This document shows positions 1 through 64,000 of a stretch of 64,000 bases of DNA, one piece after another. The first letter of the stretch is position 1, and the number at the start of each line of letters is the position of its first letter. Position numbers and translations under genes: made by a program. The DNA lies in contig JAFCMP010000334.1 of assembly GCA_017506865.1 (NCBI GenBank), forward strand, positions 186,001 to 250,000. The letters are read 5' to 3'. The notes below the pieces were generated by a model. It did not search any database and was not told the origin of the DNA. It was given only the letters and a program-made list of their open reading frames with translations. This DNA comes from Tribonema minus. Its lineage: Eukaryota; Sar; Xanthophyceae; Tribonematales; Tribonemataceae.

Positions 1-3000
1 CAGTAGCTGAGCGCTGTGCATGAACTTCAACGCCTTCACGAGCTGGTAGATGATGTACTTCTTGTGGATCTCCTCCAGGATGTTGGCGCGGATGACGGCG
101 TGCAGGTCCGTCTCTACGCGCGCACGAGTGAGTTGTGAGTCGAGTCAAATGAGTTACGCAGTGAGTCATGAAGTAAGTCGATGTTGGCGCGGGTGACGCC
201 GTGCAGGTCCGCCTCTGCGCGCGCGCGGGATTGAGTCGTGCAGCGAATCATGCGGCGACTCATGAGCAGAGTCACACGCTGAGTCATGCAGCGACTCAAA
301 GGGAGTAACACACTGAGTGTGACGGCGTGCAGGTCCGTCTCTGCGCGCGCGCACGCGAGTGAGTCGCAGCGAGTCGTGTGGTGCGTCATGAGCAGAGTCA
401 TGCACCAAGTCATAAAGTGTTGTGCAGTGCCTCGCACCTGCGCACCGGTTCACCGACACTGGCCGCGTGCCGAGGAAATCAGTGCGTGCATGTGGCGGTT
501 TGTATGCCCGCATGTATACTGGCACTTATTTGTGCGTCCCATGCGCACGCATCAGGTTGCGCATGCTAGGCCACTTCTATGCGAGGGCTGCTGCTTGTGG
601 CGCAAACACAGAGGTGGCAATGCGGCTTCTGCGCGTATGCATGCAAGTGCATACACATGAGCCATATGTGCACGGCTGCATGTTTGCGTGCATGTACCAA
701 AATGACAGGCAAATTGATGAAGTAGTTCATGGCACGCATGCATACAGCCAACTGCGCTGTGGTAGTTGTGTGCGCGCCTCGCACGATGAAAGCTACTGCA
801 GCAAACTGACGGAGGCAGCAAGCTCACCCATGTGATCGAAAGTCAGGTAGATGTCCCGTCCGTTTTCCGCCTTGATGACGTGCTGCAGCCTGATGATGTT
901 GTCGTGGCCGCTGAGAGCCTGCAGCGTGCATACATACAGTATACACAACATAAAGTACTGGAAGCACACATGTATACATGCTTGTATGAGAGGCAGCACA
1001 CAGCACTACGCTGAGGGCCTGCGGCGTACATACATGCATGCACACAAAAGTTGAGGTACTTGGAGTTTAAACATGTGCATGTATGCACGTTTGTGGCAGG
1101 AACAGCACACTCTGGCAGCCTGTCGCTTTCTTGCGTCCAATGACTGTGAAAGCCAACACCTGTGGCTCCTCCACATGGTGCTTCACGGTGCCGGAGCCCG
1201 GTCGGTGCTGCCACAGTTGTTGCCGCGGCCACTGCAATTCTGCAGCAGCGCTCTGGCAGGTGTGTTGCAGCAGCGCTCAACTTAGGAACCACTGGTAGCG
1301 CCTTCATCGATTACGTTGCATGCAGTGTGACTTGGCGACAGTAGTGGCTTCAGGGGGCGGCGGGAGTGTCACTGAGTGCAGTGTTGCAAGTGCCGTTGCT
1401 CTGGGCTGTGGCTAAGGTGGTGCAGGGGTTCAGATGAGTGTTGGGTGAAGCTGGGCTTGCTGGGAGTGTGTGAGCACATACATGCAGGCATTCACAGTCG
1501 CCAAGTGGGCTAAATGAAAGTAAATGAAATGGCGTATGGTCTGCGGCGTGAGCTGGAATCGACGGGTGCTTCTCATCGTGCCTGAATTCTGGGGTGTATG
1601 CTTTATGTGACGGCAGGTATCCTGCAAGCAAGATTTGTGAAAGTCAGGGTGCTCCACGCGAGCTGGCTACTCGCGCATACAGGCCTGTCATCAGCTCAGC
1701 AAGATGCCATTGAGGATTGGTGAGTGTACTTGCTGTTGAATCTGCAGGTGTTGCCACGGAGCAGGAGCGCCGCATCTGCCGCAATGTGCGCACATACCTG
1801 GCGGGTACAAGACAATCTCCCTGAACGTGCGCTGCGCGTCCGTCACGTTTCTGCTCTGCCCGCACGTCTTGACCTCACGCGACTGATCTCGTCAGATATC
1901 TAACGCTGTGCAGGCGTTTGCAAGCGTATAGCGACATGCCCACGCGGATGCAGACACAGCGCTGGCGTCGATGACTACCACACATGACAGGGGCGCCGCA
2001 TGTGCTGCGTAGGCGGCGGTGCGTACCTGAAGACACATGATGTCCCTGTGCGTGCGCTGCGCGCCCGTCGCGTTTCTCAACGCGTCGAAGCACTTCCTGA
2101 CGTTATGTGATTGAACCCGTCAGATATCTAGTAGAAGTACTGTTTACTGGCGTCAATGGCTACCACAAATCACAAAAGTGCCTTATCTGCTGTGGTGCGT
2201 ACTCATACCTGCAGGTACATGATCTCCCTGAACGTGCGCTGCGCGTCCGTGGCGTTCCTGAAAGCGTCGAAGCATTTCTTCAGCGCCACCACGCAGCGTG
2301 ACCGCTTCTCCGTCGCCTTCCACACGATGCCGTACGCCTTCACATGGAAGGAAGGCAAACGAGGGCGGTTTTGTCAGTGTTCTGCTGACCGTTACCACAC
2401 ACCTTGGTTGCAAGAGAGAATAATTTTCGTCCTGTGACAATGACTGGAGCCGTGACAGCTTCTATGTCCCCTTGCAGACGATCCCGTAGGCCTTTACATA
2501 GAAGGAAGGCATACAACAACAGTCACAAGGGGCGGTTTCCTCAGTAATCTGGTGAGCGTTGCCACAGAGCACGGATGCTAGGAAGATTGATTTCCGTCTT
2601 GTAAGCAGCTAATAATGACTGGAGCCGCGGCCGCTTCTCCGCCGCGGTGCCGTATGCCTTTGCAAGAACATAAAAGCGCAACCACGCAAGGCTGTTGCAA
2701 ATGAGAGGGGCGACGCAAACATACTCTGATGAAAGAAATGACCATTATCACCTTAACTGAAGCCTTTGACAACGAGCAGTGCCTAACCCTCAGGGTCTGG
2801 TGCCCTGCTCAGCGCTAAATCGCAGTCCCCTTGCTGAGAAGCCCCCCTCTGCAGCCTGGTGTATCAACAACCTTCGCTTGCATCCAATTAAGCCAGCATC
2901 AATGATACACAAACTTGTATGCTCCGAGCATCGCTGACAGCCCTCACACAAAATGCAATGTGTTTGTGCAGAGTCGGAAGATGAAGCTAGCATCGCAATA

Positions 3001-3734
3001 CGTTTGCACTTGACATGAAAAATGCTGCTGGGCGACTTCATTGACCGAGCGCGCTTTTGGTCCCAGGCACTGCCTGCATAGCTTCACTGTCGCTAATATT
3101 TACTATGCAGAAGCGTCTGCGCAAATAACGCGGCCCGTATCTCAAATGACGGTCAATACTTTCCGATACAATGCAGCGGTCATCATGCGGAATGAAAGCG
3201 AGTACCAGTGTGAGAAGCGAATAGCGCGCACAGCGTCACCAGACCACGAATTGCAACATCCGAGAGCTGCACACAGGGAATTGTCCCCCGCCCGTGGGTT
3301 GTCACCTTACTAAAAGCTGCGTGCTGCGCGCTGTCACCAGCTCCTGAAGGCATGGCATGCGATGTACTGTTTCGTTGTCGATTGGCGAGCAAGTAAACGC
3401 ATAGCCGAAAACGCCATGTAGTACCTCGCCCGATGCCCCTCCTTAGGACATGTAGTTTTATGCGTACAGGTGACGGCGTACGATTTACTGCTCATGCTGC
3501 CTAAGGTCAGTGGCGCAGCACTTCTTGGCGATCTTTTAGCCAGGCTAAACGCAAGCATGCAACTGCATCTAGCCCTTGCGCAGCCTGTAACCATACTTGG
3601 TTGACTCAACCACATTGTTTGATTGCACTGTTTAGCAGGTGTTGCCATAAGCATTGCAGCTGACTCACCCCCTTGCCCAGCTTTTGGCAGATCTCAAAGC
3701 GACGCAGCACGTGGCGGTCAATCTCGTCGCTCAT
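1..3734 (-). CDS. MAPK15: ERK7/MAPK15-type MAP kinase, 5' four exons (runs off the window)
   Basis: Atypical mitogen-activated protein kinase, ATP:protein Ser/Thr phosphotransferase; in known members it acts at basal bodies and cilia and in autophagy. Exons on the minus strand: 3734-3669, 2337-2209, 918-828 and 113-1 (continuing outside). All junctions keep frame (phases 0, 0, 1). The protein starts [22 protein letters not shown], then the P-loop [11 protein letters not shown], the VALKK lysine strand, [17 protein letters not shown] (alpha-C), [21 protein letters not shown] and [16 protein letters not shown]. The last blocks are diagnostic of ERK7/8 rather than classical ERKs. The HRD and activation loop lie beyond base 1. 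The ATG at 3734-3732 is chosen because the usual ERK7 N-terminus follows at once. Exons 2, 3 and 4 are flanked by partial copies of their own edges. Family assignment is firm; exon borders are predictions. Confidence 0.92.
114..437 (-). repeat. Two decoy copies of the MAPK15 exon-4 acceptor in a GAGTCA-rich array
   Basis: Inside MAPK15 intron 3 the start of exon 4 (real boundary 113/114) recurs with boundaries at 214/215 and 340/341. Each copy keeps a CAG acceptor and the following codons: [12 protein letters not shown] in the first and ETDLHAV in the second. The two copies are 126 bp apart, so they share a frame, and the stretch 437-117 stays open until a TAG that overlaps the true acceptor. 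Between them lie many GAGTCA/TGACTC words. Either acceptor could be spliced in phase from exon 3. I read this as tandem duplication of the intron/exon edge; use as alternative acceptors is untested. Confidence 0.8.
828..1050 (-). repeat. Duplicated acceptor edge of MAPK15 exon 3
   Basis: The exon-3 start (boundary 918/919, CTGCAG then GCTCTCAGCG) is repeated about 100 bp upstream in the transcript at boundary 1018/1019 (CCGCAG then GCCCTCAGCG). Both copies are preceded by a similar purine-pyrimidine alternating stretch of TATGTATGCA type. Only about ten exon bases are preserved in the copy. Confidence 0.7.
1640..2210 (-). repeat. Tandem array of MAPK15 exon-2 donor edges
   Basis: The 3' end of exon 2 (real boundary 2209/2208) recurs downstream in the intron at boundaries 2027/2026 and 1798/1797. 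Each copy keeps about 75 bp of exon (readable as [14 protein letters not shown] and [13 protein letters not shown]) plus a GTACG or GTATG donor and matching intron sequence such as the TCAGATATCTA word. The period is roughly 180-230 bp and decay increases away from the exon. Confidence 0.8.
2338..2670 (-). repeat. Tandem array of MAPK15 exon-2 acceptor edges
   Basis: The 5' edge of exon 2 (boundary 2337/2338, AAG then GCGTACGGCATCG) recurs upstream in the transcript at 2491/2492 (KAYGIV) and 2657/2658 (KAYGTA), with a period of about 155-165 bp and shared intron sequence. Exon 2 is therefore bracketed on both sides by arrays made from its own two edges. Confidence 0.78.
2671..3668. other. MAPK15 intron 1, remainder
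   Basis: Upstream part of the first MAPK15 intron. Short open frames exist on both strands, but none has domain-like composition or convincing splice sites. I see no further repeat or gene here. Confidence 0.5.
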
Positions 3735-4412: not shown

Positions 4413-7400
4413 TTAAAACCTGCCACCCCCATCGCTGCCAGTGGCGCTGCCGCTGCTGCTGCCACCATCACTGCCGCTTCCGCTGCCGCTACCGTCATCA
4501 CTTGTGACGCCGCCGCCGCTGCCGCTGCCGCTGTTGCCATCGCTGCCGCTGCCGCCGTCACTGCTGCTGCCGCCGTCGCTGCCGCTGCCGCTGTCATCTC
4601 CGCCATCGCCAACCGCGACACCACAGATCTGTAGCTGCAGCATGTACTCGCGGTCCAGTATGCGCCAGCCGCCCTGAGCGGTGCAGTGGCAGAGCAAACT
4701 TCAAGCTGAGAAATGAACTTCAAGTTAAGCTGCACCGCTCATCTGATCATCGTCACCGCGGCAGGCAGGCACTGCACTGCGGAGCATGGTGATGCGTGCC
4801 GCTTGCCAGTTGTAGCCACAATGCACTTACATACTGTATTAGTTAGCAGCACGCTTTGTACCCTTGCGCCCAGGTGTTGTGTTGTTGATGCAATACAACT
4901 CGGTACCTGTACGACGCTCGTGTCGTACAGGTCGTGTCGTACAGGCACAGAGAGTGTCACATTGGTCTCAGCGGCTCACATAAACTAAAGCCGGCCCCAA
5001 AGCCTGCTAACTAAAGCCGGCCCCAAAGCCTGCTTCATCTGGTACAGGGAAGTTCAGACCAGCAGTTTCATAGCACAATGAGGCGTTTGTTAGGGGGAAT
5101 GGGTTGTGTTACTTGACGGTCACTTACTACCGAATGATGCGTAAATTCTGCTTTGTGTGCTCAGCGACTTTCACTCTCGTACGCCCAGCACCCACGGTCC
5201 GGCAATGTGTCTCAGCGTCCTCTGCTGCCTTCGCGCAAGCTTAATGTGGCTGCTTTGAGATTTCCATGGCTGCAAGTTGCGAGTGCTAAGTCAGGAGCCC
5301 TTACTGACCAGTCATGCAGGTCAAGTCCATATTACTCACCGCTGACAAGTTCTGAGTCAAAAACTCATCGGCCACGAGTCCTGAGTCAAGACTGCTCGCC
5401 AAATACAACTTTGACCCGACAATACTCACCAGCTATGTTGTCTACAAGTGATCCTCAGTACGCTTTGAGACACTCTCAAGGTGGTACAAAATACATGTAG
5501 ATTCTGGTAGCAAGCTGGACGCCACCATCTGGAACTTCTCGCTGCCTAAGCGAGCATACATGAAAAGTACTCACCGGTATCTTGGGATTGAACTGGGCTC
5601 CTGCGGGGACCAGGAGTGCTGCTATGTAGGGTGTGGTGTAGCCATCCAGCTGAGCCGTCTCTTTCGCGGTGAACTTCATGAGGTGACGCGTCCAGTCGCC
5701 CTTGGCGTTGCGCGTGAGGCCAAACTCATCCGATTCAGCAATGTAGATGTCCTGCGACGAGCAAGGTACGGGACATTGAGCATGAGATAATTATCAGCAT
5801 GTTAGAACACTTGGTGCAGGCGGCGGTGATGATGGTGGGACTGAATTTGGTGAGGTAGTGTAGTCATACATTCGAGATGACGGGGAGGGAAGCGGCACAA
5901 CGAAAGATAGACGCGCTTGATGATCATTGACAACGACACAATAATATGCCTCAGGCACAGATCCGAACAGCTGCAGCTCCTAAGGTCAATCAACAGAAGT
6001 ACAAGTGTGAATAAAAAGTACACGCAACGCACGCAAGCACTTGCTCGATTCCGGTCGCAGCGCCACATGCACTCGATCGGCATGGCATTCCTCAACGAGC
6101 CCATGTACTCCACAACGGCTTCGTTCGATGGCCTATCCTGGCAGCTGGCCGTCAAACGCGCCATCGGAGTAGAGGAGCAGACGGCAGGCTGCAAGCTGTG
6201 CGGGAAGTCGCCGGGCGGCACCCTGCATGCACGGCTGTGTCAAGCGCCACGCGTCAAGGCGCACGACACCATTGTCCACAATAGCGTCAAGAGGGCCACG
6301 CAGCGCCTCCTGCGGCAATACCTCAAAACGGGACTGGTGGACGAGGACTACACGCCGTTTCTGGGGTCCGCCGGGCCGCCGGGGAGTCGCAGGATGGACA
6401 TCGTGCTGCCTGCCGACGCCTTCCCGGTGACCGGCTACGACGACCCGACACGCCACCTACCGCTCATGGTGGACGTTACCTGCTTCGAGGCACAGGTGGC
6501 GTCGCGGGCGGCGAAGACTGCAGCAGACCCCGAGCGATGCTGCCGCGACCAAGAGGCCGCCAAGACTACCCACTATTCTGGTCATTATGATCAGAATTGC
6601 TACAAACTTGCCACATTGGCAATAGGGTCATTTGGCAGCATCGGGGAGCAGGGGCGGAAGCTGCTGGAGGCTGTGGCGACGGAGTATGCCAGCAGGATGT
6701 CAGTGCCCGGAGGAGCGCGCCCTAAAGCTCTCAAGGGCATCGCCCTGGCGCGCTTACGCTCGGCACTGTCGGCAGCGCTCCACATGGCGTACTCTGGCCG
6801 TGTCATGACACACATGGCAGAATCCAGGGGGGGGGGGCACATGGAGGAGGACGTAGGGGAGGACCCCGAGATGCCATTTGGCGGCGGCGGCGTTTGAGTG
6901 GTTGTCGTTGCGACACTTTCAGACTGTCATACGACATGTAGATTCCTTACAGCTAGATGCCAATCATCTGGGCTTTTTCGCGCCCTGAGCGAGAATTAAT
7001 AAAAAGTACAAGTGTGACATCATACCGCACCCCTGGCACTCAAAACCTTCTAATGCACTCTCACCCAAATACGCGCCCAGAACTGTCAACAACCACATAA
7101 AACACCATCAACCAGCATCGCGACAGACGGTGCTGCGCGTCGCTGCTCATGCTGAATAGTGCAACTTGTTGAACTTCTGCACATAAACTTCTATGAAGGA
7201 CGCTCCGCTTACATCGGGACCCAGGTAGGTATCAGCGCCGGTGCCAATCTGCAGATTGACATGAAGGTCGGCGGTCGGTGCGCTCTCCAAATGCGTCAGC
7301 ACGGCCACCTGCCAGGGCTCCCCCGGCTGTATGCAGTCGGGGATGATGGGGAAGTCGATGCCATCCTGCAGTTGAGAGCACAGGAAGGGCATGGACATGT

Positions 7401-10400
7401 GTTGAGACACAGCATATGGTAGAAAAAGCCGGAAGGTACAGAAGCCAAGGAGGTTTTGGGGGGGGGGGGGGGGTAATGTTGAAGGGCTTCCAGGGCGGCT
7501 GCACGCAATTGCAGCAGGAAACCTTTAAAGTGATTTAGGGACGGCAAGGAGTTGCCGTGGGAGGGGGGGGGAGGTGATGCTGGTGACGAGGGAACTCCAC
7601 ACAACACAATGTTTTATGAGCCAAGGATTCATACTAGTGCCTCTGCGTAGGTCGTATTTGACAGGATAGCGCTGTAGCCACTGGTACCAAGACACGTGGT
7701 GACAGCGCATGCAAGCACGCACGTGATTTGTGCAAATCTTCAACCACTTCTTCAAGAGATGTGGTTCCGGCAGTGCACGGCCGAGAGCGGGGAACACTGC
7801 ACACATCACCCGCAAATGGTGTCTGCCATCTCTGTGCACCTTGCTATTTAATCTGCACACACGCGCTGCCGTGCACCACAGCGCTACGGTGCTGCCAAGG
7901 ACATCCCGAGATTTGCCGCAGACTGGCACGTCAGTGAGGCATCAAAACATGCATCGGTACAGGTTGCACTCGCAGTACTGCAGTCAGTTTTTGGCAGCAG
8001 TGCTCAGACTACACCCTCTGCTACTAGCCGAGTGTTTGCACGCGGCAGAACGGCGCGAGTGAAGGCGTTTTGTTGACCCTAAGTATGCGCAGAAAACACA
8101 AGCTCACTGCAGCTCTAGCGCAATGCGAGCGTGCGCTGCGCAGTGGCGTGTACGACGACATGTGCTCGCACACCAGGCTTCAACGTCTGTAGCCTCCTTC
8201 ACTCCTGAGCCTCCATTCACTCATGAATGTGATAATTTGTTGAATACAGCGCATAATGGCTGTTTGGTGTGCCGCCGATTTCCGCAGACTCTCACACGTC
8301 ACGTACCATTCATGGTGCTTGTTCAAAGAACAATCCATATTTTCAAGATCACTCATTCATGGCGCACGTTCACATGACCATGAATTCATCCACTCAGCCC
8401 GTGAATGCGGAGCGTCACCTGCTCGCCAGTGGGCGCCATGTTCCAGAGGTGGTCCGGTACGGGTTTGCAGTCACCCTCCAGGCCGTCGTACAGCGGCTGC
8501 TGATCGATGCCCGTCTCGGCGAGCATGTTCGGGAAGGGGTCGTATACCTCCGTACCCGCAGCTTCGTTGCCCCACTCGGGCTGCGGGGGAGAACAGCGAA
8601 ACACGGCTTGAGTTCTTGCGTGCTGCTGCGCTTGTCGTAGGATGATTGCTTGGAGGAATGCATGTTCATGCGGAGTGTGACAAGGCGGGGAGGCGGGGGG
8701 GGGGATGGGGGGATGGGCTGCGGGGGAGGACAGCGAAGCTCGGTTCCATGTTGAAGCCTTACGCGCTGCTGCGCTTGTTATAGGATGAATGCTTTGAGAA
8801 TGAGTGTTCACATGGAATTTCGGAAGGTGGAGGGGGGGGTAGAGAGGGTGGGACAGGTGCTTGCTCGCTGGTCGCGCCTGGCTGAGAGTCCACAACGCAG
8901 TAACGCAACTTAAGTCACATGCGTCGTGCTGCGCTAGTGAAGGTATGTTGCTGTATTAACCATAAACGCAGGTGACACCCAGCAGCAACGCTCAGCGGCA
9001 GCTAGTACTTCTGCATTCTGAGTACAGCATCTGGAGCAGAGATCAATGCAGTGTGCGAACCTCTGTGAGCACGCTTAAGGCAATGATAATGCGACGCAGC
9101 AGCTGGGCGTTTGCAGTAACAACACTTTTGCCAGCTCTCCACTGCAGGTCATGACGTCTGGATGCTGATGCATGCATGCTGGGCCCTAGCGCACACAAAA
9201 CAAAGCACATGTGCATTGTCCAGTGCCGGCAACATCAAGACCTACATTTGTCCCCCACTTCCTCCCATTGCCCCATCTTACAACACACCACAACCAAGCT
9301 TCTCAAGTGCTGCTGCGCAGCAGAACATCCACCATGCAGCGATGCGCGTGCCTGTGTAACTTCAACTCCTTCAACGTCAACTTCAATGCGTCAGCACTCC
9401 GCGCACTGCGGCTGGACCACAAGTGTGTTTGCTTCCTGCACGTCTGGAACATCAACTTCAACTTTGACTTCAAGAGGACGGCTGTGTACTGACCGCGATG
9501 AAAAACTTCCACATGACGTCGTACTCTCCGGTATCGGGGTCGGGCACGGCGTCCATGGTCTGCTCAAACGTGTGCTCGCCGCACTGCCACTCGCCCTCCG
9601 GTGTGTAGCCTGCCGGTACGTATGTATACAGTATATGTATGCACACGTATGCATATTTGATTAGTTTGGTATGCGTAGCACTCCTAACGTGTTTGAACGT
9701 GTGCTCGCCGCACTGCCACTCACCCTCCGGTGTGTAGGCTGCGGGTACGTATGCATAGACTAGTATGCATTCATATACCTCCAACCTGTGGGAACGTTCA
9801 TGTCATGCGTACGCGTACGCATACATCCTTCAAGTGTACAACGGGGACAAGTCTGGAATTGTGTGATTTGAACCAAGGCCGCTGAAAGGGGCATCGCGTG
9901 TGCTCATCGAGGCAGTCCTTTCTGATTGAGGCACAACAAATGCGATAAGGCAGCACAAAGGCGGTCACGACCAATATGGCTACAGAAGTTGAAGTGATTG
10001 CTGTCTGGGCGACCAGGCATTGCCATCTAGGGTATGGGTATGCGCGTATGCACTAGGGCGACACGCCAGCAATATTGGTAGCTCATCACATGAAGTGCTG
10101 TGCAACATCGAGATCCAAGATGCAAGATCACAAGATTGCATGTGGCTCATTTTTTTGGGGGAAGTACTGCCTCAGACGTAGGCAAGTACATGTACTTCTG
10201 GCGGAGGCGTTGTCAAGTCCTCACAAGGGAACTAGAAACTGATGCACATTTGGTACAACTCCAGGGTCATACGACATTCGAAGCTGCCACACATGCCAAA
10301 GCAGAACATTAACAACAGTGCTTGTAGCCGATATGAATCATCGCAACGGTACTAAAAACATGCTGGTAGGCCCATTCCAGGGTCATACCATGCTAGCAAA

Positions 10401-38990: not shown

Positions 38991-38994
38991 GCAA

Positions 38995-39735: not shown

Positions 39736-39754
39736 TGTAACTCTACTTTTAAGC

Positions 39755-41692: not shown

Positions 41693-42262
41693 ATTGTACA
41701 TTTTCAAACCGCGCTCAACGCTAGTCTTCTACACTCATGCCCGCCTCGCCACCTGCCGCCAGCCTGATCTCCAGGCCGCCTGTAACAAAGAACTCGGCGC
41801 TGGACGCGATAGGAAAAGCGGCCGTGAGCCCCCCCAACCAGGCGCTGACCAGAACCACGAAGCACACGTTGATCGCCGTGCGCCCCCCCCTGTTGCCGGG
41901 GATGCGCACTTGCATCCACGGCCTGCTTCCCCCGCAGCAACACCCGTGCAGAACTTTGACTTGCGCCAGCTCTATCTCCTCAAAGTCGCCGTCGATCATC
42001 TCGAAGAAGATACCGTCGAGGGCGCAGTGGTCAATGAGCAGTGCTACCAGCAGCCGGCGGACGTTGACGACCACCAAGCGGCTCGCCAGTGCTTTGACGC
42101 TGCCGCAGACCTGTTACGGCAGCGCCACCAGCAGCTGCCCCTCGTGGTCGTGCATGGGTCCTGGCCGCTGCGTCCCGAAACCAGAGCCTGCTGCTGCTGG
42201 GCCATGTCCAGCCCAGGTCCGTCAGTGCTGCGCTGCGCTGCTGCCCTGGTGGTGCTGAGTAC
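41693..42262 (-). pseudogene. Truncated inverted copy of the gene C 3' end
   Basis: On the minus strand it matches gene C from about 37650 to the stop (VVVNVRRLLVALLIDHCALDG against VVVNVRRLLAALLIDHCALDD; RIPGNRGGRTAINV; AWLGGLTAAFP). An indel near 42150 breaks the frame. The 3' end runs into GTTTGAAA followed by ATGTACAA, and the 5' break is preceded by ATGTAC, a possible 6-bp target duplication like the GTAC sites used by the local retroelements. It is probably a 5'-truncated retrocopy (inference). Confidence 0.75.
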
Positions 42263-52475: not shown

Positions 52476-55400
52476 ATGAGCAAGGCGGTGTTCACTGGCG
52501 TGTTTGACACACTCGTGTCGGATCCTGTGACCCTGCACACGGGTGGCAGCTTTGAGGACTCGCCAGATCACGCTGTCTTTCAGTGGTGGTGCGATGGAGC
52601 CAGTCTGCAACAGGTTCGTTTAATGGATGTTGACAAGAAAAGAGTTGGTGGGAACTTGATTTACCTTCAGGCCAAACTGGCAACTCATCGACCGAATAAA
52701 ACACGTCGTCAACAAGAAGTGTTTTTCGTACACGAGTCAGGATTGCATACATGATGTCATGCAAAGCATGCCCAGCCAAGAAACAGACAAACAGAAGAGC
52801 AACAAGGTGCTGTAGTATACTGTAGTCAAAATATTGGCATTATGTATGGAGGGGGAGGGGGGGGTTGAGTATACCCTAACCCTAACCCCTGCCGGCCCTA
52901 GGATCCGACCCCTGGGCGTGAGCCCGGTCGCCGACTCCAAGAAGAACCCCCCCCTTCCCCGCTCCTCCCCCCGCACCTACTCTTGACGAAAACATAGGCG
53001 TGGGTGGGTGGGTGTTTTCTCGTTCCGTGTTAGCTGGCTGTACTACGGTGGCCTGCTTGACAACGCACACAGTGTGATCAAACGCAGGGCCACCAACATT
53101 GTGTGACCGCAGTGACATCACTGCAGTTCAAGCGAAACCGATATGTTTATGCAATCGCTTATGGCTCCCGAAAAACGGCCTGCCTCTCCGTGAACTCCGA
53201 TGCACTCCGACCTTATGATGAGTGCGGCAAGCTGTTTAACTGTGGTGACACGAGACAGAAACACTAGCCTTTGTATTCACCATCATCATGTGCCAATGCA
53301 TATGGCGATTGGCAATCACATCATGTGGTACTGCTGCTATCCCTGCGAAAATACACCATATACAAGGTGCAGCCCTTACTGGATCATCAAATGAAGTATT
53401 TTGAATGCGAAGCATTGAACACCCAGCCTTGGCAAAACCGAACACGTATCTGGCATGAATGAACATGGACATGATGCAGTGTCAAGAACAGCATCGCCGC
53501 AGGATGCAGCAAAATCGTGCCATGCATCATCCGCTGTACACAGCAGCACTGCTCGGCTGCTGGCGCATTCGATGGCGTGTGTGCCTCTTTACACTGTGGC
53601 TGTAGTGACCATGAACAAGCTGCTGCAGTGTGGCACACCAGGCCTTATTTAAACTCTACGCAAATCACACCACACTCTGGGTTGCCCTACCCCGTAAGCA
53701 CATCACACGACACTCCGGGCTGCGAGTGTAGCCCAGCACACTTAATGCAGGAAACTCACGCAGCGCTGCTGACACCGCTGCTTTGGAACCACATGCTATG
53801 CAGGTAATCAGCTGGCGCCATGTCGCTGTGAACGCTAACAAAAAACAACATTCCAAAGTGTGCCTTCCCAGTCCCCCCTGTGCATACGGGGTTCCTAACC
53901 CTCCTCGGTGTGCCGATCCCAGTGCACCCTAACCCTGATTCTAACCAAACCCTAGCGGTATTCCTAGCTAAACCTTACCCTGACCCCAGCCCTCACTTCC
54001 AGCGGGTCGGCGTCCTTCACGAGCAGCGTCCCACACCGCCCTAGCCCTACGTGCGCCAACCAACCCTACTTCAACCCTACTTGTGCGCGCAGGTCGTGCG
54101 GCAGCGCTCCATCCTCTTCAAGCAGGAGGCGCAGAACCACGCGCTCAAGATGGGCAAGATCCCCGGCATGGAGTTCTCGTTCCGGCGCCGCGGCTCGTCG
54201 GTGGAGGAGATGAGCGCGGAGGCAGCGCTCAGCGAGAAGCAGCAGCTGGAGAGGCTGTTCCTGCGCGATACGAAGGACCTGTACCGTATTTTCGACACGG
54301 CGGAGCATTTTCTATGCCAGCCAGATCTGCTGCGGAGCCAGGCGAGTTCTTGGGACCTCTTGTTAGGGTTTGGGCAAATGGTCCAAACCCTACCCCTAAC
54401 AGTAAGCTCGAACTGCTGCAGAGGTTGGCGCGCAACGGGAGGTCCGGGTGGTTGCAGCAACCGTAATCATAAATGAAAATTTAAGGCCGATCTGCTGCGG
54501 AGTCTGGTGCGTGGCAAGGGCAGCGTAGTGAACCCTAAGCCTAACTTATTGCCCTTTCTGCTACAGAGCCAGGTGCGCCGTGAGCGTGCTCTGCGAGTGC
54601 CTTCAAAGTCCCCTGTCACATATCGCTGATGGCCCTGGGCTGATCATGTACTGACACGTGAATGAGAGACTGAGCGTTGTGCGCCGCGCTTCGTCCTAAC
54701 CCTAGCCCTAGCCCTAAACCCCACCCCTAACCCACATTGGGAGACGTTTCTAGTGCTACTCAATAAGCAACTTTGAAGTACGGTTTTCGACCTGCTGACT
54801 GCACCTAAAACGGAGGCACACTCATTGGACGCGTACTCTGCGCCTTAGAGTAAAACAAGGGTTGAGTAGCCCCAATTTTTAACTGTATTACCCCACACAA
54901 CCAACCGGAGAGCTGACCATGGGCCATGCCGCGACCGTTACGATGTGCCGTCGCAATAGTGCTCATCCCAGTGGTAAATCCCCTTGTGCGCACATGCGTC
55001 TCTATCGGCTGGTGCCGGCTGACGGACGCGCCCGCTGAGTAGGCACCGCACGCGCTTGTCCCTGGTAACACACTGTAAGACAATGCCGTGTCAGACCCAC
55101 AAACACTGCAAATGCAACACCCTGCAGCTGCCCGGGCACCAGGTTGACTCAGGTCTGTGTTGAGCATACATACCTGCCATCCCACAGGCCCCAGCTGTCG
55201 TGTTTCTGACAACATAATGCAACACAGCGCCGTGTAAGAGCCCAACGGCTGCACCTTCCTGAGGCAACACCTGATCCTTATCTGTCATCTGCAATACGGT
55301 ACCTGCCCCCCTGCCAGGGGCATTAACTTACCCCACTTCTGTCATCTGCATACCTACGGTACCTGCCCCCCTGCAGGTGACGCTTCAGCTGTTGTACTTA

Positions 55401-58400
55401 TGCCAGGCCCAGTGCAATGCGCCATGTCAGACACGCGCGCGCTGTAAGAGCCCCACCGTGACAACTGCCAGAGTCATCACCTGACCCCATTTCTGTAGTT
55501 TTTTCTGGTCCTGCCCCCCCCATTTCGTCATCTGCATACATACATGCCTGCCCTCCTGCAGGTGGCGCTCCAGCTGTCGCCCGCCGCCGCGCAGTGGATA
55601 ATCACTTATCAACAGCACACAGAAGTCTTGACTACTGTGGATATGATGGCACTGTTTGACTCGTGGCCAATTACTGCAGCAGCGGCGACCACGGTTATCG
55701 GTGGAAGGCACTTGCGGCTAACCACTCCTTGTCACCTGCAGCTTTACGATCTTGTGATTCGTTTCTATTTTAAAATCAGCTGTCAGGCATCACCTGACCC
55801 ATTTTTGTCATGTGCGTACATACATACCTGCCCTTTCGCAGGTGACGCTCCAGCTGTCGCCCGCCGCCGCGCAGTGGATGATCCGGTGCTACTACGCGCT
55901 CGATGAGAACGTTCTGAGAGAGTTCCTGGGAAGGCGCCTCGCAGGAAAGGTCCGCAAGGATCTGGGCGATGTTAGCGAGGCCACCAAGACCCCCGTGAAG
56001 AGCTGCCGACGGCAGTTTGACAACCTGCGCAGGGTCATGACGATGCTAGAAGAGGTGTGTACTACTGACATACAACGGTGATAGGCAGGTAGATGAGTAA
56101 TGAAGGTCTGATACGTGCACACACCTGAAAGTATTGATTGTGCTGTCAACATTTACTAGTTCAGTAGCAAAATACGGCCATAGTTTGCTGTCTGTAGTGG
56201 GCCAGCGTGCCCTTGATAATGTTGTCAATCCTTGCGCTGCGTATTTGAAGGCATGCATCGCTGCAGTCGCCAGTCGAACACTTTGTTCTGGGCCATGTTG
56301 TTGCTCTCCGAGATACAAGGGTATGTAGCAGGACACTTGCAAGAGCACAGACGCTGATACGTGTTGTAAAGGTACAGGCGTGCCAGGCTGAGGTACTGAG
56401 AGTGCTGAAGCAGCATATATGGGGTGTTGACAACACCCTGAATTGGCGAAAACATTTCTACACTTCGCGTAGCTTCATGAGGACACCCAATAACCTAGGT
56501 ATGCAAGTATGATAGCTGTTATAACACAGGCTGCTTTGCACCACATTGATTTCGTGTCTTGTCGACCGTGTTCAAGTAAAAAGCTGACTCAGATGCACAA
56601 TCGCGGTGGTCTATTATCACAACAGATACTTGTTTGATCTGCTGATGTGCTGCGTTGAGCTTTTTGTACTCCTTTGAAGCATTTGAACTTGCTTTGTATG
56701 CCCAAGCGTGATAAAACAGGCAGAAGACCGTGGTGCGCTGACCAGTTTCAAGACCCAAGAGTGTCAATGCTGTTTTTGTGCTCAGTCCGCAATCCCAAAT
56801 TGTACTTGTGGCTTGCCAAAATCGAGTATTATATTGCAATGTACACAATCCTGCCTATGTGCCCAGTCCGCAATCCTAAACTGTACTTGTGTCTTGCCGT
56901 GATTATAGAGCTTCCTTTCTGTAATGCAGCATCCAAGGTAGCAGCTGTTACACGCCAGACAGCCTGAGTAAGAGGCAAGTCAGACATGAGGTATGTACTT
57001 CAAGGACTTAGGCGATGAGGCGTGCATTGCAAGGATGGAAGATATTGCACGATGGCTTTGTCTGCCTTTGATCGCAGTGCGCGACGCTGCGCAGGATACG
57101 CTATGCGAGGCATCGCATCGGTCCATGGTGCCCTCCTTTATAGTTTGAGCAAGGCACCATTGCAGTAACACGCAGTCATACACAATGCACGTCTAACGGG
57201 GCCCAATTCGCACGCCATCGCCGCCGCCTCGCCGCTGTTGCCATGCTTTCAGAGTCATCAATATCACTGCTACGTGATGTTGGAACTTCAAGAGAAGTTT
57301 GAGCTTGGGCCGAGGTAAGCTGATTGTGTCCGCATCGGTTGATGTTGAAGGTGGCATTGTGTTGACAAAATTGTGTGCTTAGTGTCACCACTGGTGTTGT
57401 GGATGTCAGGCCTTTGACCTATCGCCACCGTGAGCTCAGCGTCAACATGGCTGCCATCATGGTCTGTTTTTACGCCATGCAGTGACTGGAGCATAGCAAG
57501 GCGCATCCCAGTGGCTGCGCCTATCAGTCACCAAACGCGTTTTGCGCCTGTGTACAGCATGCGTCATTAAAGCACTGCCCTGCGTATGCCCGCGCAACGC
57601 AATGCGCTCTGCTGACATGGTTGATGCAGCCCGCATTGTGCGCCGCTTTGCGTTCGCTGCAGTGCTGCGTGGCACTTCAGCCTGCTCACAAACCTGCGAC
57701 GGTACCAACTTCAACAACTTCATGCCTCTCTTTGGACATACTGCAGCATGTGACGCAGCACTGTGTATCATGTGCCGCTTTACGTCCTCTGCAGCGCTGT
57801 TCGGCACCTGAGCCCGCTTACGCCCTGCATCACCAACTTCAACAACTGCACGCCTTTTGCCGCTCAACAGACTGCAACTCTGGTGACGCTGTTATAGTGG
57901 CACTGCGCATTTGACGGTGCATACATGCATGTGTGCATACGTGAGGGTCGTCGGAGCTCATGCCTTTCATTGCCCCGTGCCTGTCATCCCCCCCCCCCCC
58001 CCCCCCTGTCCCCCTCCCTGCAGCCTCGCGGCTCAGTACATGTGCGTCACCTTCCTGCTGCACCACAAGTTCAACTTGCAGGCGGCGCGCCACCCGACGG
58101 CCGGGGTCACGGCGCAGGACTTGGTGTGGTGCGCGGCAGGTGCGAGCTGCATCTTCAATATCTGCTTTTTCAACATCTTGCTGAGCATCATCATCATCAT
58201 TACCCGCTGTTTGCCCTGAGCTTGGGGAGCTGAGGGCTGTGTGTAACTGTGAAGTAACCCCCGCTGCAGTACACGCACATGGTCAGAATCGTTCCCGAAC
58301 GCAGTATAATCGATCACGCATGCATGAAGTGGTGGTGCGATAGCGCGCAGATGGGCCCAGCAATTCAGCCAACTGTTACTGTGGTATGCCTCAGTGCTCC

Positions 58401-61322
58401 AGTGATGGAGCTGCTGTGACCTCCATAGCAGCAGCTTCAATGGCGCGTACAGCATTTGCGGCTGCGCAAAAGGTAACTGCTTTGACAGGAGAGCTTCAAT
58501 GAATGAGAGGCATGCGCTCGCACGACAATGTTGAATGTGATAACTGGAATGCGTACCGTCCCCCTGGGACTTCAAGGGCGGAATGAAGGGTGCAGGACGG
58601 CTGGCGCTACCCCCCTACATGAGTCCCAGGCTCTAGTCTGAGTTCCATTTAATCCCCGGACTGTGGCTCCCCCCCCCCCCTCCCAGGACTGAGGCTGACC
58701 CCCCCCGCCCCCCCCTCCCCCCTTGAACACCATTGTATGCAGGGCTTTTGTGCTTCTGGGTCTGTCCTGGCAATCACCGCATGACGCAGCACACAGAGTA
58801 CTTGGAGCTGCAGGCGGAGCTGACTGGGTCACGCGCGCCGCCGTTTGAAGAGCGCGAGTCGACGCGGCCCGCACTTGAAGATGGCCTCGCAGAGGTGCGT
58901 GAGTACGGTGCAGTGAAGCAATTATGCGGCACTTAAATACGGTACAGCAAACCAGTGACACGGCACTTGAAGATGGCCCAGCAGAGGTGTGTGAGGACGG
59001 TATAACGAACCAACAGTGTTCGGCACTTGAAGATGACCTCGCAGATGTGTGTGGGTATTGTACAACAAATGCGCGGCACGTGAAGGTGGCCTCGCAGAGA
59101 GGTGTGCAGAGGTGTGCAGAGAGGTATGAGTACGGTACAATAAACCAGTTACGCGGCACTTGATGATGGCCTAGCACAAGTATGTGGGTACGGTACAACG
59201 ACCCGAATGCAATACAATCCCTGCACTGTTGTTGAGGCACTTCACAATGTCACAATGAACTCCACACTTGAGGATGAAGATGACGCGATGTGAGTGTGGC
59301 AGAATGACTGAATCGTGCTCATTGCACTATTTCAGAGCACTCTGCAATATCACAACGTCTTTCGCGGCAGCTTGAAGGCGGTGCCTGACAAACTGCTTCA
59401 GCAGACACTATCGTGTGTACATTCACTGAGCCTTGCTGTGGCTTGCACAAAATTGCCACAAGATGTGCTTTCGCTGTCATCCACTTCACATTTCTTAATC
59501 TTATTCCTGGTTTATCGCGGTTGCGCGCATCGCCACAGGTGTTCGGGCTGGACCTGGACAAGGATTGGATAGCGGCAATGCGAGAGATCAAGTAAGTACG
59601 GTTACACACGAATAAGTGCGTGAAGATTGCCCTTGTCAGGCACTCATGGTGTTGTGATACATGCAAACATACTCTCGCTCATGCTTCCAGAACCGCATTT
59701 GTAGCCATTGAAATATTACTGTGCCAGCATTCGGGCTGCTACATCACCCGGTTCATCAGCTCTGCCTTGTGGACAGGATTAGGTCAAACCTACTCCTTGC
59801 ATCGTGAATCTCTTCAACTCACACCTCTCATGCTGCCATGTGAGAACGTCTTCAAGTCAACGCAGGCATCTGTCTATCTGCAAGCTCTCCACATGCAGTT
59901 GCTACTTCAACTTCAAGCTGTAGGCTCAGACGCGCCTACGCAGTGCACTCGGTGTAACCGCCACTGGTCACTGTCACCGCTGACTACCCTGCCTACTTAC
60001 CTACCCGCATGCGTCACCGTGACGTCACTTCAACTTGGCCTGCAGGCACTTGCTAGCTGGAGAAACGAGGGGGGGACCCCTGGACTCGCTGCAGCAGTAC
60101 ACCCTGGCGGCGCTGCGCGAGCAGCTGCCGCAGGCGCACTTCAAGTTCATCGAGGCGCACTTCAAGAGCGCCGTCAAGCAGCTGTGCAGCATCGGCGCCA
60201 ACCTGGGCCTCAGTCGGGAGTGCAGGTGCGATGGATAGGCGCAACGGACTTGCCTTGTCACTGTGTACTGGTCGACTTTTATTTCAAAAGGCCCCTAAGG
60301 GGGGCTGGGTGTCCTATGCAATGGTGACGTTTGCTCCTGCGCAGCAGCTCACTCACTGCGTACTACCGGTCATGATGTGCAGTGCACGCTGTGCTCGAGA
60401 AGCGGTGGCCCCAGCGCCAGTGGCAGACCGCGCATGTGACTTCAGCTACTTGATGTTTTCAATCGGAAGCAACACACACTGAGCCACCGCTGAAAATGTC
60501 TTGGGCTGAATTGCGGCCGGGGTTGGGGCTACCTAGGTGGTGCGCAGCGATGGCGCCGATTGCAGGTGAAGTTGCAGGTTCTGCTTATGGCAACGCAGGG
60601 CAGACAAGGCGATGCGTGTGTAGATCAGAGAGCTCAGACAGTCACCATGGTCAGCTTTCAGTTCTGACTGGCATCGCTGAGCTACACCTGCCACCTTCCG
60701 CGCGACGATGCAGCACTGCGCCTCGCCTGAAGCGTGACGCAACCTCGCCGCCGCGTCTGTGCCTCGCGCGAACGTCTCGCGCGTGCTCGAGCTGCCGCGC
60801 AAGATTGAGAGTGGTTGCGGCCACCTTGTCCACCTGTGTGTCCCCTCGCCGTACAAGCTGCCGTCATGGGAGAACGTCGCAGGCGGCGTCCGCTTGGCTC
60901 GCTTAGCTGGTGCAATAACATGTAGCACGCCCGGGCCGCTTCGCCGCCGTAAACCTGTCTCAAATGGCGCGGACGGAAACTGACCGCAATGCGAATCACC
61001 GTCACTCCGCGCGTGCAGAGACGTCTTTGAAGACCTCATTGTGCGCGTCTTCGAGCCCCTGCTCAAGAGCGGCAGCGGCAGCAGCGCTCCGGCCCTCGCA
61101 GACATCCTCGCCTTGCTCGCCGCCATGACGCACCACTTCCCCGCCGCCGTCGCCGCCGCCGGTCAAGTGACGCCGCACATGCACGTGCACGGCGGCGGCG
61201 GCAGCGCTGCGGCGGCGGCGGCGTTTGGCGACGTGGCGGCGACGGCGGCGGCTTGGACGCGGTTCATGGGCGGCGTGCGCGTGTGCCTGCTCTTCATGTA
61301 CAGCGGCCGGTCCGACAAATGA
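52476..61322 (+). CDS. FIBP: FIBP orthologue (FGF1 intracellular-binding protein family), 9 exons, 470 aa
   Basis: Exons: 52476-52613, 54093-54341, 55842-56054, 57253-57314, 58024-58139, 58797-58894, 59539-59591, 60046-60225, 61019-61322; total 1413 nt, all phases consistent. The match to animal FIBP runs the full length: FRIFDTAEHFL-like, YYALDENVLREFLGRRL, RKDLGDVSEATKTPVKSCRR, QFDNLRRVMTMLEE, LQEKFELGPSLAAQYMCVTF, EYLELQAELTG, VFGLDLDKDWIAAMREIK, FIEAHFKSAVKQLCSIGANL, DVFEDLIVRVFEPLL, RFMGGVRVCLLFMY. It is longer than human FIBP (364 aa) because of an insertion in exon 2 and an Ala/Gly/His-rich insert in the last exon. Biochemical role is unknown outside animals. Exon 2 seems to use a GC donor (CAG then GCGAGT). 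Exon edges are duplicated at exons 2, 3 and 6. Confidence 0.93.
52870..52895. repeat. Interstitial CCCTAA repeats
   Basis: ACCCTAACCCTAACCCC within FIBP intron 1, next to G- and C-rich sequence. Confidence 0.75.
53885..54090. repeat. Degenerate telomere-like stretch up to the FIBP exon-2 acceptor
   Basis: Repeated CCCTAAC, AACCCTAG, TACCCTGACCC and CAACCCTACTT words run almost to the acceptor at 54092 and double as its polypyrimidine tract. Confidence 0.65.
54320..54580 (+). repeat. Tandem donor edges of FIBP exon 2
   Basis: Exon end CTGCTGCGGAGCCAG (boundary 54341, followed by GCGAGT) recurs at 54506 (GATCTGCTGCGGAGTCTG then GTGCGT) and 54572 (CTGCTACAGAGCCAG then GTGCGC). The copies carry GT donors while the in-frame exon carries GC. 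Telomere-like CCCTAA words (54355-54405 inverted pair, 54530-54545) are interleaved. Confidence 0.75.
54690..54738. repeat. Interstitial CCCTAA/CCCTAG repeats
   Basis: CCTAACCCTAGCCCTAGCCC TAAACCCC-type run in FIBP intron 2. Confidence 0.7.
55145..55900 (+). repeat. Array of FIBP exon-3 acceptor edges
   Basis: The real acceptor is at 55841/55842. Copies with tract, CAG and exon start lie at 55561/55562 (GTGGCGCTCCAGCTGTCGCC, about 40 exon bp kept), 55376/55377 (GTGACGCTTCAGCTGTTG) and 55187/55188 (GCCCCAGCTGTCG); a tract-only copy ends near 55317. All share the upstream TCATCTGCATACATACCTGC motif and TCACCTGACCCC. Period about 185-285 bp. Confidence 0.88.
56754..56935. repeat. Intronic tandem duplication, period about 107 bp
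   Basis: Two copies of a unit with GTGCYCAGTCCGCAATCC, AAAYTGTACTTGTG and CTTGCC in FIBP intron 3. Confidence 0.8.
57620..57870. repeat. Intronic tandem duplication, period about 124 bp
   Basis: Two diverged copies with TGCGCCGCTTTGCGTYC, CTGCAG-GCTG, ACCAACTTCAACAACT and GCCTTT words in FIBP intron 4, before the long C-run at about 57988-58008. Confidence 0.75.
58850..59300 (+). repeat. Array of FIBP exon-6 donor edges, 5-6 units
   Basis: Exon end GCACTTGAAGATGGCCTCGCAGAG (58871-58894; donor GTGCGTGAG) recurs with boundaries near 58986, 59046, 59101 and 59179, and weakly at about 59290. Most copies keep a GTGTGTG or GTATGTG donor and the following TACGGTACAAYRAACCAG intron word. Period 60-100 bp. 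Confidence 0.88.
60255..60325 (-). mobile_element. Solo 3' end of the 15-19 kb-type retrotransposon
   Basis: GTCGACTTTTATTTCAAAAGGCCCCTAAGG and CCTATGCAAT correspond to the 3' UTR of the complete element (about 15045-15100, same relative orientation). GTAC lies just outside the end. It lies in FIBP intron 8. Confidence 0.65.
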
Positions 61323-62980
61323 ACACTTGAAAGTATGGTGCGACAAATGAATACTTGAAGTATGCTCTCTGGTGCGCTGGTGTAGGGCGCGTGTACGTGT
61401 CGTGCCCGGTGCTTGTGAGGTCCATGCGTGGTGGCGTGAGCTGCCAGTTTGCTGCATTAGGTGACTGTGGCCAACCTCGCGCACAGGTTGCTTGCTTCTG
61501 TCTCTGCCACTGAGCAGTACTGCGTGCGTGCGAAAGATTAGCATCAGGTTTACCTGTCGCAGACTGTGATCGATAACTCTGCTTAAGTGAAGCTTCAGCT
61601 GAAGGCTGCAAATCATATTAAAGTTCGTCTGCATTCCGCCTTTTAACTTTCGCGGTTGCCAGTTTGCATGCCCTTTAGTGTGCTGTATTTCCATGCGTCA
61701 CACAAGATCTTGGGAGAGTTACTGCTGTAATCAACAGCCAGTTCTCAGGAATGTGCGCATCTGAGAAGCCCGTCGTTGACAATGTGCCAGGTGCACCTGC
61801 CAAAACTTCAACAGGTAAAAGGCTGAATGTTGACGTGTGTTTTAACAACATCCTACTACAGGTGCCCAGAGCTGGACAGGTTGATGCATAATGAAATGCA
61901 CACTATCGAGCATACAAACAAACCAATTCCCAATGATGACTAACTCTGCAAACGATGCACAAGATCAGGCACAGCAGAGTATGCAATCAGGCAAGAGTGT
62001 GGTTGATGACCAGACAGAAACTTGCGTCACGGCAGCCGTGACAGGCCTATGGAGCCCTATGAGCATCCTGACACCACGCAACAAAGGCGAAGCATCCAGC
62101 AACATCACAGGAAGCACTGTCTAAGAACATCATGTGCAGGAACGCGTTTATTGAGCACCCACGCATCGACCGTCAGCGCAGCTTGCACATGCAAAACACA
62201 TCCAGATCTGTGATGGACACCAGCTTCGCCGGGCAGGCAGCACAGGGGCTGTGCCGCAGCCACTCACTGGGTATGAAGGTATACCTAGGCCCCAGACCCG
62301 GAGTACATACCCTGCCCCGCCAGGGGGCCCCCCCATTTTGTGCGTCGCTGGCGCCGCTGCACACCCACTGTGCGTGAAATCAAGCACCGCGCGGCAGTTT
62401 CAGGCGTGCGCGGCAAAAGTGCAGCAGCTGTCTCCTTTTTCTTGTCTCTTTGTGGCGCGGGAGCGGAGCCTCCGACTGACCATTGAGCACAACACAGTCA
62501 CCCCCCCCCCCCCATGCAGCAGCTGCTGCTGAGCAACTAGTTGCGGCTGCCCGTGCGAGTGGCGAGGGCGCAAGAGGGGCCGGGAAGGGGGGGGGGGAGG
62601 GGGGGGGGGAGAGCAAGATGCCGGCAAGGCGGCTGCAGCCCGGTGGCACGGGAGAGCCAAGGGGGGGGGGATGGACACACAACTCGCAAGACACCCAACA
62701 ATATAGTACCAAGCTTAGACCCCGGGGCCCAGCTGATCACGCCCACTCCTCATCAGAGTCCTGTACAGACGTGCAGCAGATGCGCAGGCAGGGAAATGCA
62801 GAAATCAGTGATCAGCCAGCAAATGATTTTGTTGCAACGCATTACACACGGTATAACCGACACTTTGTGCGCTCAAGTGCTGTAATACCTCTAAACACGG
62901 ACCTGAACGACAGGTACCGAGATGCGCGTTTACTGACAACACCTGGGCACGCGCAACTCACGCAAATGCAGAGTTCAAAA
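61323..62980. other. Convergent intergenic region, FIBP 3' / BET gene 3'
   Basis: Holds both 3' UTRs and perhaps further BET exons that I cannot place. A 15-bp repeat (ATACTTGAA-GTATG) follows the FIBP stop. C-runs lie at about 62502-62515 and long G-runs at about 62587-62612 and 62663-62672. No other gene is supported. Confidence 0.4.
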
Positions 62981-62984
62981 CTGT

Positions 62985-63350
62985 TCTCCTCCTGCACACA
63001 CAAAAGTCCCCGGCGTAGAGGCACCGGCACATCACCCAGTAAACAAGGCACGACGCAGTGGAACAGTACAGGAGCACGAGCACACAGTTCACCACTGTAC
63101 TGATCCTGGACTCAACAAGTTACTGGCGTACAAGCGCCAGCACAGTACAAGGCACGTTGCAGTGGAACAGTACACGAGCACAAGTACACAGTTCACCATT
63201 GTACCGATCCTGGACTCACAAAAGTCGCTGGCGCAGACGTTGGGGGGGAGTAACCAAAGCACGACGCAGCGGAACAAGCACACTGCTAGCTCGAGTACGC
63301 AGTTCACCACTGTACTGATCCTGGACTCACAAAGTCGCTGGCGTAGTCGT
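62985..63350 (-). repeat. Array of BET-gene donor edges
   Basis: The exon edge at 63331 (SDF then GTGAGTCCAGGATC) recurs at about 63218-63236 and 63112-63130, with a trace near 63000, spaced about 105-110 bp. Intervening sequence (GAACAGTACA..GAGCACGAGCACACAGTTCACC on the plus strand) repeats with it. Confidence 0.8.
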
Positions 63351-64000
63351 TGGAGGGGCTGGCGCGGCGCCGCGACGCGCTGCGCTTGCTGAAGGTGCTG
63401 CCACGCCGCATGCAGCTCTCCACGTAGATCTGCAGCTCACGCAGCGTGCCCGTGTCCATGGAGTCAATGTCGATCTCGATTTCGGACTCGTCCTGAGAGT
63501 GCGGCGTGGCGATGGGAAGCGGTGTGTTAGTGCGCAGTTAGTTGTCTTCGAGCAATGAACCAATCGGCATAGAGTAAGTTCGTACATCGATGTAGATACA
63601 GTGCGGGCTGGGTGATGTTCGCTATCACCACTGAGTTGACCCTGGCCCTCATTTTTGACCTAGCGCTACTCCTGACCCATAAAGTATGCGGAGTGTCAGC
63701 CACGGGCGGCCAAGCTCCTCCCGAGAAGAAGACTGCACGTTGCGCTGCATTTAAGGTCACAATAGCTTGTGCGGGCACCAGTCATGTGCGCGTGCATAAA
63801 GACACAGGCAAGCAGGCACTGCAATGGCCAGCCCACTCTACCAGCATAATACTTGCCGCGCATTGAGTGTGATGCCGCAGGTGGGTAGGTAGGCATGCTA
63901 GGCATGCTACCTCATCTTCGGTCTGCAGTTGCGGCGGGACGTCTCACCTGTGCGCCGAGCGGCATGCGCTCCTGGATGATCTGCACGACGCGCGTCAGCT
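63331..64000 (-). CDS. BET/GTE bromodomain protein, ET (NET) domain exons (partial)
   Basis: Exons 64000-63948 (enters from outside) and 63492-63331, minus strand, joined in phase 0. They read LTRVVQIIQERMPLGAQ, then DESEIEIDIDSMDTGTLREL, QIYVESCMRR, which is the extra-terminal domain of BET proteins (family pattern: KL..VVHIIQ..EP, DEIEIDFETL..TLRELERYV..CL). This surface binds chromatin and transcription cofactors. It is followed by a basic/Ser stretch (SKRSASRRRASPSNDYASDF) and a GTGAGT donor. The bromodomain would be upstream, beyond base 64000; the C-terminal remainder below 63331 was not identified. Confidence 0.87.

Follow-up and report, generated by a model that had tools for sequence, protein, structure and literature searches.

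Do introns grow from the edges of their exons? The question is raised by a stretch of the Tribonema minus genome (158.18 Mb in 554 contigs; 56% GC), positions 186,001 to 250,000 of contig JAFCMP010000334.1, in which exon ends recur as decayed copies inside the adjoining introns, mostly together with the splice site and the intron sequence next to it. This whole stretch of 64,000 bp is referred to here as the window, and a run of such copies as an array. The original prediction, made from the window, described a widespread habit of exon-edge duplication into introns that affects donors and acceptors alike. Our comparison of exon edges with other positions supports it: arrays are not spread equally along introns and edges but are concentrated at the edges, which hold 62 of the 71 against 25.0 expected, and outside the window the count is 52 of 57 against 22.1. 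The observation is real, extends beyond the window, and is far commoner than evenly scattered duplication gives.

Excess of arrays at exon edges

The main sample comprised 91 introns whose two flanking exons were defined: 19 from the genes of the window, 38 from kinesins and one myosin, 24 from relatives of a window gene called gene A, and 10 from ab initio genes that a strict gene finder called in random stretches. Introns shorter than 60 bp or longer than 4000 bp, low-complexity pairs, and repeats with both copies in one exon were left out, and at most 200 bp of exon flank was examined. Under the main null, an array could start anywhere in the intron or lie over either edge by no more than one period. 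The 71 arrays occurred in 56 introns, and none of 50,000 simulations placed as many of them at edges as observed; a sliding null on the same introns gave 25.7 ± 3.5 edge arrays, with a maximum of 39 in 5000 draws. Donors and acceptors are both affected, as the 62 edge arrays comprise 29 at donors, 30 at acceptors, and 3 at both. Altogether, an array is present at 65 of the 182 exon edges. Of 90,538 intron bases, 26,284 (29%) lie in arrays, and in the 34 introns that measure 1 kb or more the coverage is 0.50 within 200 bp of an edge and 0.11 beyond 600 bp. The median intron length is 932 bp with arrays (n = 56) and 663 bp without (n = 35). Nine arrays are interior, and four of these nine lie within 26 bp of an edge.

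The excess recurs in the subsets. The blind set, loci L064 to L068 with 23 introns, was picked from domain coordinates before the sequence was fetched, so that repeats could not steer the choice; of its 22 arrays, 21 lie at edges (expected, 7.4). Even placement along introns and edges thus describes neither the main sample nor the blind genes, and the departure is weaker when exons are masked (see below). The kinesin and myosin genes alone gave 28 of 30 (expected, 12.9), the window genes 10 of 14 (2.9), two-copy arrays found without masking 35 of 43 (14.5), and an earlier run on 59 introns 38 of 45 (13.1). Conserved exons are easier to match, and we therefore also report the arrays aligned over 40 or more noncoding columns at an identity of at least 0.75, of which 38 of 44 lie at edges against 14.3 expected (in the blind set, 13 of 14 against 4.7). 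When the window was joined by eight random 10-kb stretches, 33 of 79 repeat pairs took in an edge of a strongly predicted exon (null, 18.5 ± 3.6, with a maximum of 31 in 500), as did 11 of the 26 pairs that were at least 75% identical (3.8 expected).

Some arrays could not be placed between two known exons and were not counted, namely those of L050, L057 (positions 1 to 304), L060 (two), L063, and L016 and the outer arrays of L014, L015, and L019. L050 has one such array at a donor edge and one 60 bp inside the intron, and the outer arrays of L014, L015, and L019 are all at exon edges; by hand arithmetic the tally becomes 62 of 77 if all unplaced arrays are taken as interior and those at edges are omitted. 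Also outside the 91-intron count are loci with two predicted exons and either no repeat pairs (L044, L046, and L056) or no intron arrays (L045, L047, L053, and L061).

Anatomy and decay of the copies

The arrays have periods of 88 to 282 bp, with one of 613 bp, and a median span of 2.2 periods (quartiles, 1.7 and 3.2). Their exon part measures 10 to 199 bp at donors, where it reaches at least 40 bp in 31 of 32 arrays, and 11 to 197 bp at acceptors, where it is shorter than 40 bp in 10 of 33; this difference (Fisher P = 0.006) was noticed post hoc. Exon copies in neighboring introns are overwhelmingly direct (92 of 97, with 5 of 97 inverted), as local duplication of exon sequence in direct orientation would leave them, and 79 of the 92 direct copies come within 5 bp of the edge. 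When the same exons were each compared with one randomly drawn intron of another gene, no matches were found. The copies found are of donors or acceptors already present, in most cases with the intron sequence that adjoins them, and several introns carry separate arrays at their two ends. In some arrays the copies have a common breakpoint in the exon, at -40 in four of four copies at gene A exon 2 and at -66 in three of three in intron 3 of kinesin C516, a pattern to be expected if a single founding event was followed by exchange between the copies.

The copies decay much as unconstrained sequence does next to an exon that is kept. The exon part of the copies is 0.86 identical to the exon at donors and 0.89 at acceptors, and the aligned intron part is 0.74 and 0.72 identical, respectively; these values are near those of one-sided versus two-sided decay, the intron parts being slightly lower than that. 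Mismatches at the three codon positions number 222 of 2125, 198 of 2115, and 367 of 2112, which fits unconstrained copies together with synonymous change in the real exon. Splice signals are not kept better than their surroundings: in 43 aligned donor copies the G of GT is kept in 41 and the T in 34, and in 40 aligned acceptor copies the A of AG is kept in 33 and the G in 35, so that in these copies decoy sites decay at about the rate of the remaining copy, with neither retention nor removal. Selection on the copies or on their decoy sites is not supported. That the real exon is the best-kept unit, as the original prediction had remarked, is what purifying selection on the exon would give, without any special mechanism.

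Copies with a well-kept exon part depart from this simple decay. Where the exon part is at least 0.95 identical (16 of 89 copies), the intron side stands at 0.71 (0.60 when shuffled), against 0.94 predicted at equal age; for exon parts of 0.90 to 0.95 it stands at 0.74 against 0.84, for those of 0.85 to 0.90 at 0.75, as predicted, and for the two more decayed classes at 0.69 and 0.73 against 0.64 and 0.51. A related contrast is seen upstream from exon 3 of gene A and of its window paralog, gene B. By-eye reading of the alignment shows the same outer flank of the copy in both genes, and the copy is therefore older than the split between them; its exon part is nearly identical to the exon in gene A and decayed in gene B. 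Gene conversion from exon to copy would account for both the class of at least 0.95 and the gene A/B contrast.

A proposed explanation and its rivals

With confidence barely above even, we hold that frequent short tandem duplications, biased toward exons and tolerated over exon edges, lengthen introns from the edges inward. Under this explanation, local tandem duplications with periods mostly of 90 to 250 bp would arise often, with a bias to segments that have one end inside an exon. Duplications lying wholly inside an exon would be removed by selection, and those crossing an exon edge would be tolerated, since the added copy falls within the intron and leaves the outermost exon and its splice site untouched. 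Further unequal exchange among copies could then yield the longer arrays; the copies would change unconstrained, with gene conversion from the exon perhaps renewing some of them in part, and the intron would lengthen from its edges inward. That the duplication-prone part is exon sequence rather than the splice site is suggested by the 3' end of gene B (19633 to 19901, minus strand; period, 186 bp), where the end of the last coding exon has been copied after the stop codon, 19633 to 19715 being a copy of 19819 to 19901, at a place with no splice site in the gene model. More tentatively, and with doubt on balance, we suggest that exon-biased local duplication together with exon-to-copy conversion makes introns grow from both edges throughout the genome in a way that neither transposons nor even duplication explains.

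Simulated duplication with a 10-fold or 20-fold bias for one end in an exon gave 78% or 88% edge arrays, with observed-to-expected ratios of 3.8 and 4.2; a 10-fold bias with conversion gave 77% and a ratio of 2.04, and with exchange 86% and 3.8. The real arrays show 87% at edges, a ratio of 2.5, and 29% of intron bases in arrays. Even duplication was run in 12 settings, all with exons under selection and some also with gene conversion or homology-driven exchange; 11 of them gave ratios of 1.02 to 1.65, and the twelfth gave 3.64 on 3 arrays. A tenfold exon bias appears, in these models, to fit better than even duplication. We also tried a passive ratchet in which contractions onto the exon are purged and expansions are neutral, and its simulated runs did not reach the observed excess.

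A number of results weigh against the proposed explanation, and several of them favor an ordinary, even tandem duplication whose edge copies merely survive and show better, one copy decaying beside a conserved exon, possibly with strong conversion adding to the effect. With exons masked, 16 of 31 arrays lay at edges against 9.2 expected at score 30 (P = 0.005) and 14 of 29 against 8.8 at score 36 (P = 0.025), an excess of only 1.6- to 1.7-fold, and for two-copy arrays alone the excess was nonsignificant (8 of 17 against 4.7 [P = 0.06] and 7 of 16 against 4.8 [P = 0.17]); these figures are a warning that the raw excess owes something to the ease with which conserved exons are matched. The masked scoring demanded matching periods and missed arrays otherwise seen to reach an exon; 24 of its 31 arrays belong to exon-reaching arrays in a cross-reading done by eye rather than computed, and pairs at least 75% identical gave 9 of 14 against 3.7 (score 30) and 7 of 12 against 3.4 (score 36). 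Even simulations came up to 1.65-fold (two-copy arrays, up to 1.79), and with heavy conversion they reached 88 to 89% edge arrays. The simulations are, moreover, toy models that were not fitted, from which it follows only that the even settings tried are insufficient, and exon-biased runs without conversion overshoot the ratio (3.8 to 4.2 against 2.5). Exon starts differ within other arrays (-79, -43, and -97 in intron 2 of kinesin C516; -58, -38, and -54 elsewhere); many copies align over less than one period and so are not clean tandem units; exons of all loci other than the blind set were set after the repeats had been seen; and the intron-side identity, almost flat at 0.69 to 0.75 whatever the exon identity, is a poor tracker of age, although the class of at least 0.95 stands out. 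Under even duplication, edge-crossing copies would be tolerated for the same reason as under exon bias, the exon part does decay about half as fast, and interior arrays are present (9 of 71). We nevertheless consider this reading rather unlikely, given the 62 of 71 arrays at edges, the 38 of 44 that remain at a noncoding identity of at least 75%, the 35 of 43 among unmasked two-copy arrays, and the 21 of 22 in the blind genes. Strong-conversion runs fill their introns with arrays, so that the expectation is nearly as high as the count (109 of 122 against 100.3; 90 of 102 against 78.5), unlike the real introns with 26,284 of 90,538 bases covered; of the nine interior arrays, moreover, four are no more than 26 bp from an edge. 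Part of this unusual pattern is ordinary, namely edge tolerance and unconstrained decay; the remainder is poorly explained by an even process.

The boundary itself could instead be what is duplicated, by a process that targets splice sites or the chromatin or RNA bound by the spliceosome (polymerase pausing, R-loops, RNA-templated repair, or template switching). Such a process would place arrays over edges at both donors and acceptors, as seen, and it could draw on the post hoc donor-acceptor difference in exon part and on the copies that stop a few bases from a splice site. The exon-side ends of the duplications, however, are spread over 10 to 199 bp at donors and 11 to 197 bp at acceptors, gene B has its copy at a stop codon, and inverted exon copies, common among template-switch and end-joining insertions, are just 5 of 97; the suggestion in the original prediction that splice-site-like words act as template-switch points is not supported, given this spread and this orientation, and we regard the whole class of explanation as improbable. 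Still less probable, to the point that we give it little weight, is that selection keeps or favors the copies as decoy splice sites or as material that lengthens introns. Some copies do have an exon part far better kept than the intron side, and stops number only 3 in 1300 copy codons (a raw count, with no expectation computed), but the decoy GT and AG decay about as the remaining copy does, and codon positions 1 and 2 differ little in their mismatches, with the position 3 excess fitting synonymous change in the real exon.

The proposed growth of introns by exon-biased duplication has relatives among known processes. In the model ascribed to Rogers, an intron is reportedly gained by tandem duplication of an exon segment containing AGGT; this is likewise a local tandem duplication with exon sequence, tolerated as splicing removes one copy, but the AGGT model creates an intron between exonic copies, whereas here an existing intron is lengthened and the unit is mostly exon end, splice site, and intron start. 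Gao and Lynch in 2009 are said to have described internal (partial) gene duplication across exon-intron boundaries. Those segments, too, often take in part of an exon and its splice site; here, in contrast, 65 of 182 edges are involved, many arrays are multicopy and decayed, and the excess over even placement was measured. Intronic minisatellites also form arrays of units of about 100 bp inside introns and are thought to change by unequal exchange, but the arrays described here are tied to exon edges, where selection keeps one unit as the master copy, and we know of no minisatellites serving as a genome-wide mode of intron growth.

Tandem genomic duplication is an established source of new introns (PMC3443670, which cites Hellsten et al. 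2011 and Gao and Lynch 2009; Drosophila cases in PMC2891723). Like introners and other transposon-derived introns (PMC9860276), the arrays are repeated sequence that shapes many introns of one genome; unlike them, the copies match their own neighboring exon, with no matches in randomly drawn introns of other genes (similarity between the introns of different genes was not searched). Intron sliding (PMC2891723) also leaves extra splice sites near the true one, but the copies here look nonfunctional by their decay, and moved intron positions were neither seen nor looked for. In the CC-licensed literature searched, nothing was found that describes arrays at exon edges as a way in which introns grow throughout a genome. 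What differs from the known cases is that existing introns appear to grow from exon edges, and at a large share of edges. Lineage differences in intron length are an old question, for which transposons have been the usual answer. Were exon edges to seed intron growth, the length of an intron would depend on duplications whose ages can be read from the individual copies, and the rows of unconstrained decoy splice sites would be a natural test of how the spliceosome chooses.

Arrays in the window and other features

Gene models in the window were built from coding score and homology, and a local self-comparison found 37 repeat pairs less than 2 kb apart, 31 of them direct. The original prediction had listed 16 junctions with copies and one gene end. 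Ten of the junctions give clear alignments, three are weak or merely touched, and at three (FIBP exons 3 and 6 and gene B exon 6, apart from its 3'-end copy) no edge copies were found; the gene end, that of gene B, was confirmed. The list was also said to span six unrelated genes, which does not hold for genes A and B: exon-by-exon alignment makes them paralogs, with exons 74 to 84% identical.

The MAPK15-like kinase on the minus strand was recognized by sequence, and its exons were read directly; in the introns around exons 2 to 4, donor and acceptor segments recur with substitutions and stops. The exon 4 acceptor array (79 to 413) is clear, with a period of about 101 to 126 bp and an exon part at 79 to 113, and exon 2 (2209 to 2334) is clearly flanked on both sides, by a donor array at 1762 to 2278 with two decayed donor copies and by an acceptor array at 2297 to 2668 with one upstream copy. 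The exon 3 acceptor array (909 to 1139) is weak and takes in 11 bp of exon. In gene A, also on the minus strand, the exon 2 donor array (10426 to 11010) is clear and made of units of about 108 bp, with four matches that each begin 40 bp inside the exon; no counterpart was found in paralog B. The exon 3 acceptor duplication (9567 to 9773) is likewise clear, and by eye the alignment shows its intron copy to be common to paralog B, whereas the exon 4 acceptor array (8578 to 8853) abuts exon 8419 to 8580 and only touches it, by 3 bp. Gene B, on the same strand, has clear arrays at the exon 4 donor (23312 to 23496; exon 23457 to 23618) and the exon 3 acceptor (24869 to 25390; exon 24797 to 24912).

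On the plus strand, the NPC1-like gene has an intron-interior array seen in the self-comparison (46335 to 47154), a clear exon 2 donor copy of 54 bp of exon and 9 bp of intron (47547 to 47740), and a weak exon 4 donor copy with a raw score of 24 (49491 to 49661). The FIBP gene, also on the plus strand, whose identity is backed by four relatives that all carry PF05427, has a clear array at its exon 2 acceptor (55227 to 55883; exon 55842 to 56054). Two further FIBP arrays are interior: one (57609 to 57889) stops 134 bp short of the exon 3 acceptor at 58024, and the other (58871 to 59204) is intronic in the gene model, in which the placement of a FIBP exon between 58139 and 60046 is provisional. 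The BET gene on the minus strand has a clear donor array (62963 to 63358; period, 114 bp) at its NET-domain exon (63331 to 63492), with the donor at 63331. The NPC1-like and BET labels were given by eye, with no database test.

Relatives of genes A and B occur elsewhere, with 48 exon-level matches in the genome, their own matches included. In one relative of gene A, L003 (contig C27, 344206 to 347625), query positions 56 to 214, which gene A splits over three exons, form one open frame, a possible intron loss, and no arrays were found in it. Different introns of the two paralogs contain a 374-bp sequence that is 99.7% identical between them (6638 to 7011 and 25778 to 26151), probably a recent mobile element. 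On the minus strand, 15128 to 19060 holds an open frame of 1311 amino acids with an RVT_1 match (E = 7.7e-7; 29.5 bits, the curated cutoff being 29.6), probably a retroelement. Inverted copies, 523 bp long and 90% identical, of the end of a long open frame (37651 to 38172 and 41731 to 42253) are likely a mobile element as well, and 26248 to 26301 is an interstitial CTAACC/CTAACCC array of the TTAGGG telomere-like type. The genome also has many exons for light-harvesting proteins, which mark a photosynthetic alga. One such exon had no match in the PDB at 1e-8; another scored highest with long LHCI chains of entry 9vfj when several stretches were summed, and with chains named ACP and CAC, names of the cryptophytes and the red lineage, when single stretches were compared. 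A search for phycoerythrin-alpha gave no hit, but its controls gave none either, so that this negative carries no weight. Separate from the exon-edge arrays are long, decayed, self-complementary palindromes without a spacer, four in the window (14505 to 15037, 39817 to 40264, 45184 to 45908, and 61115 to 61278; 62.8 to 74.6%) and two more in 80 kb of random stretches (L033, 344 to 593; L039, 535 to 993).

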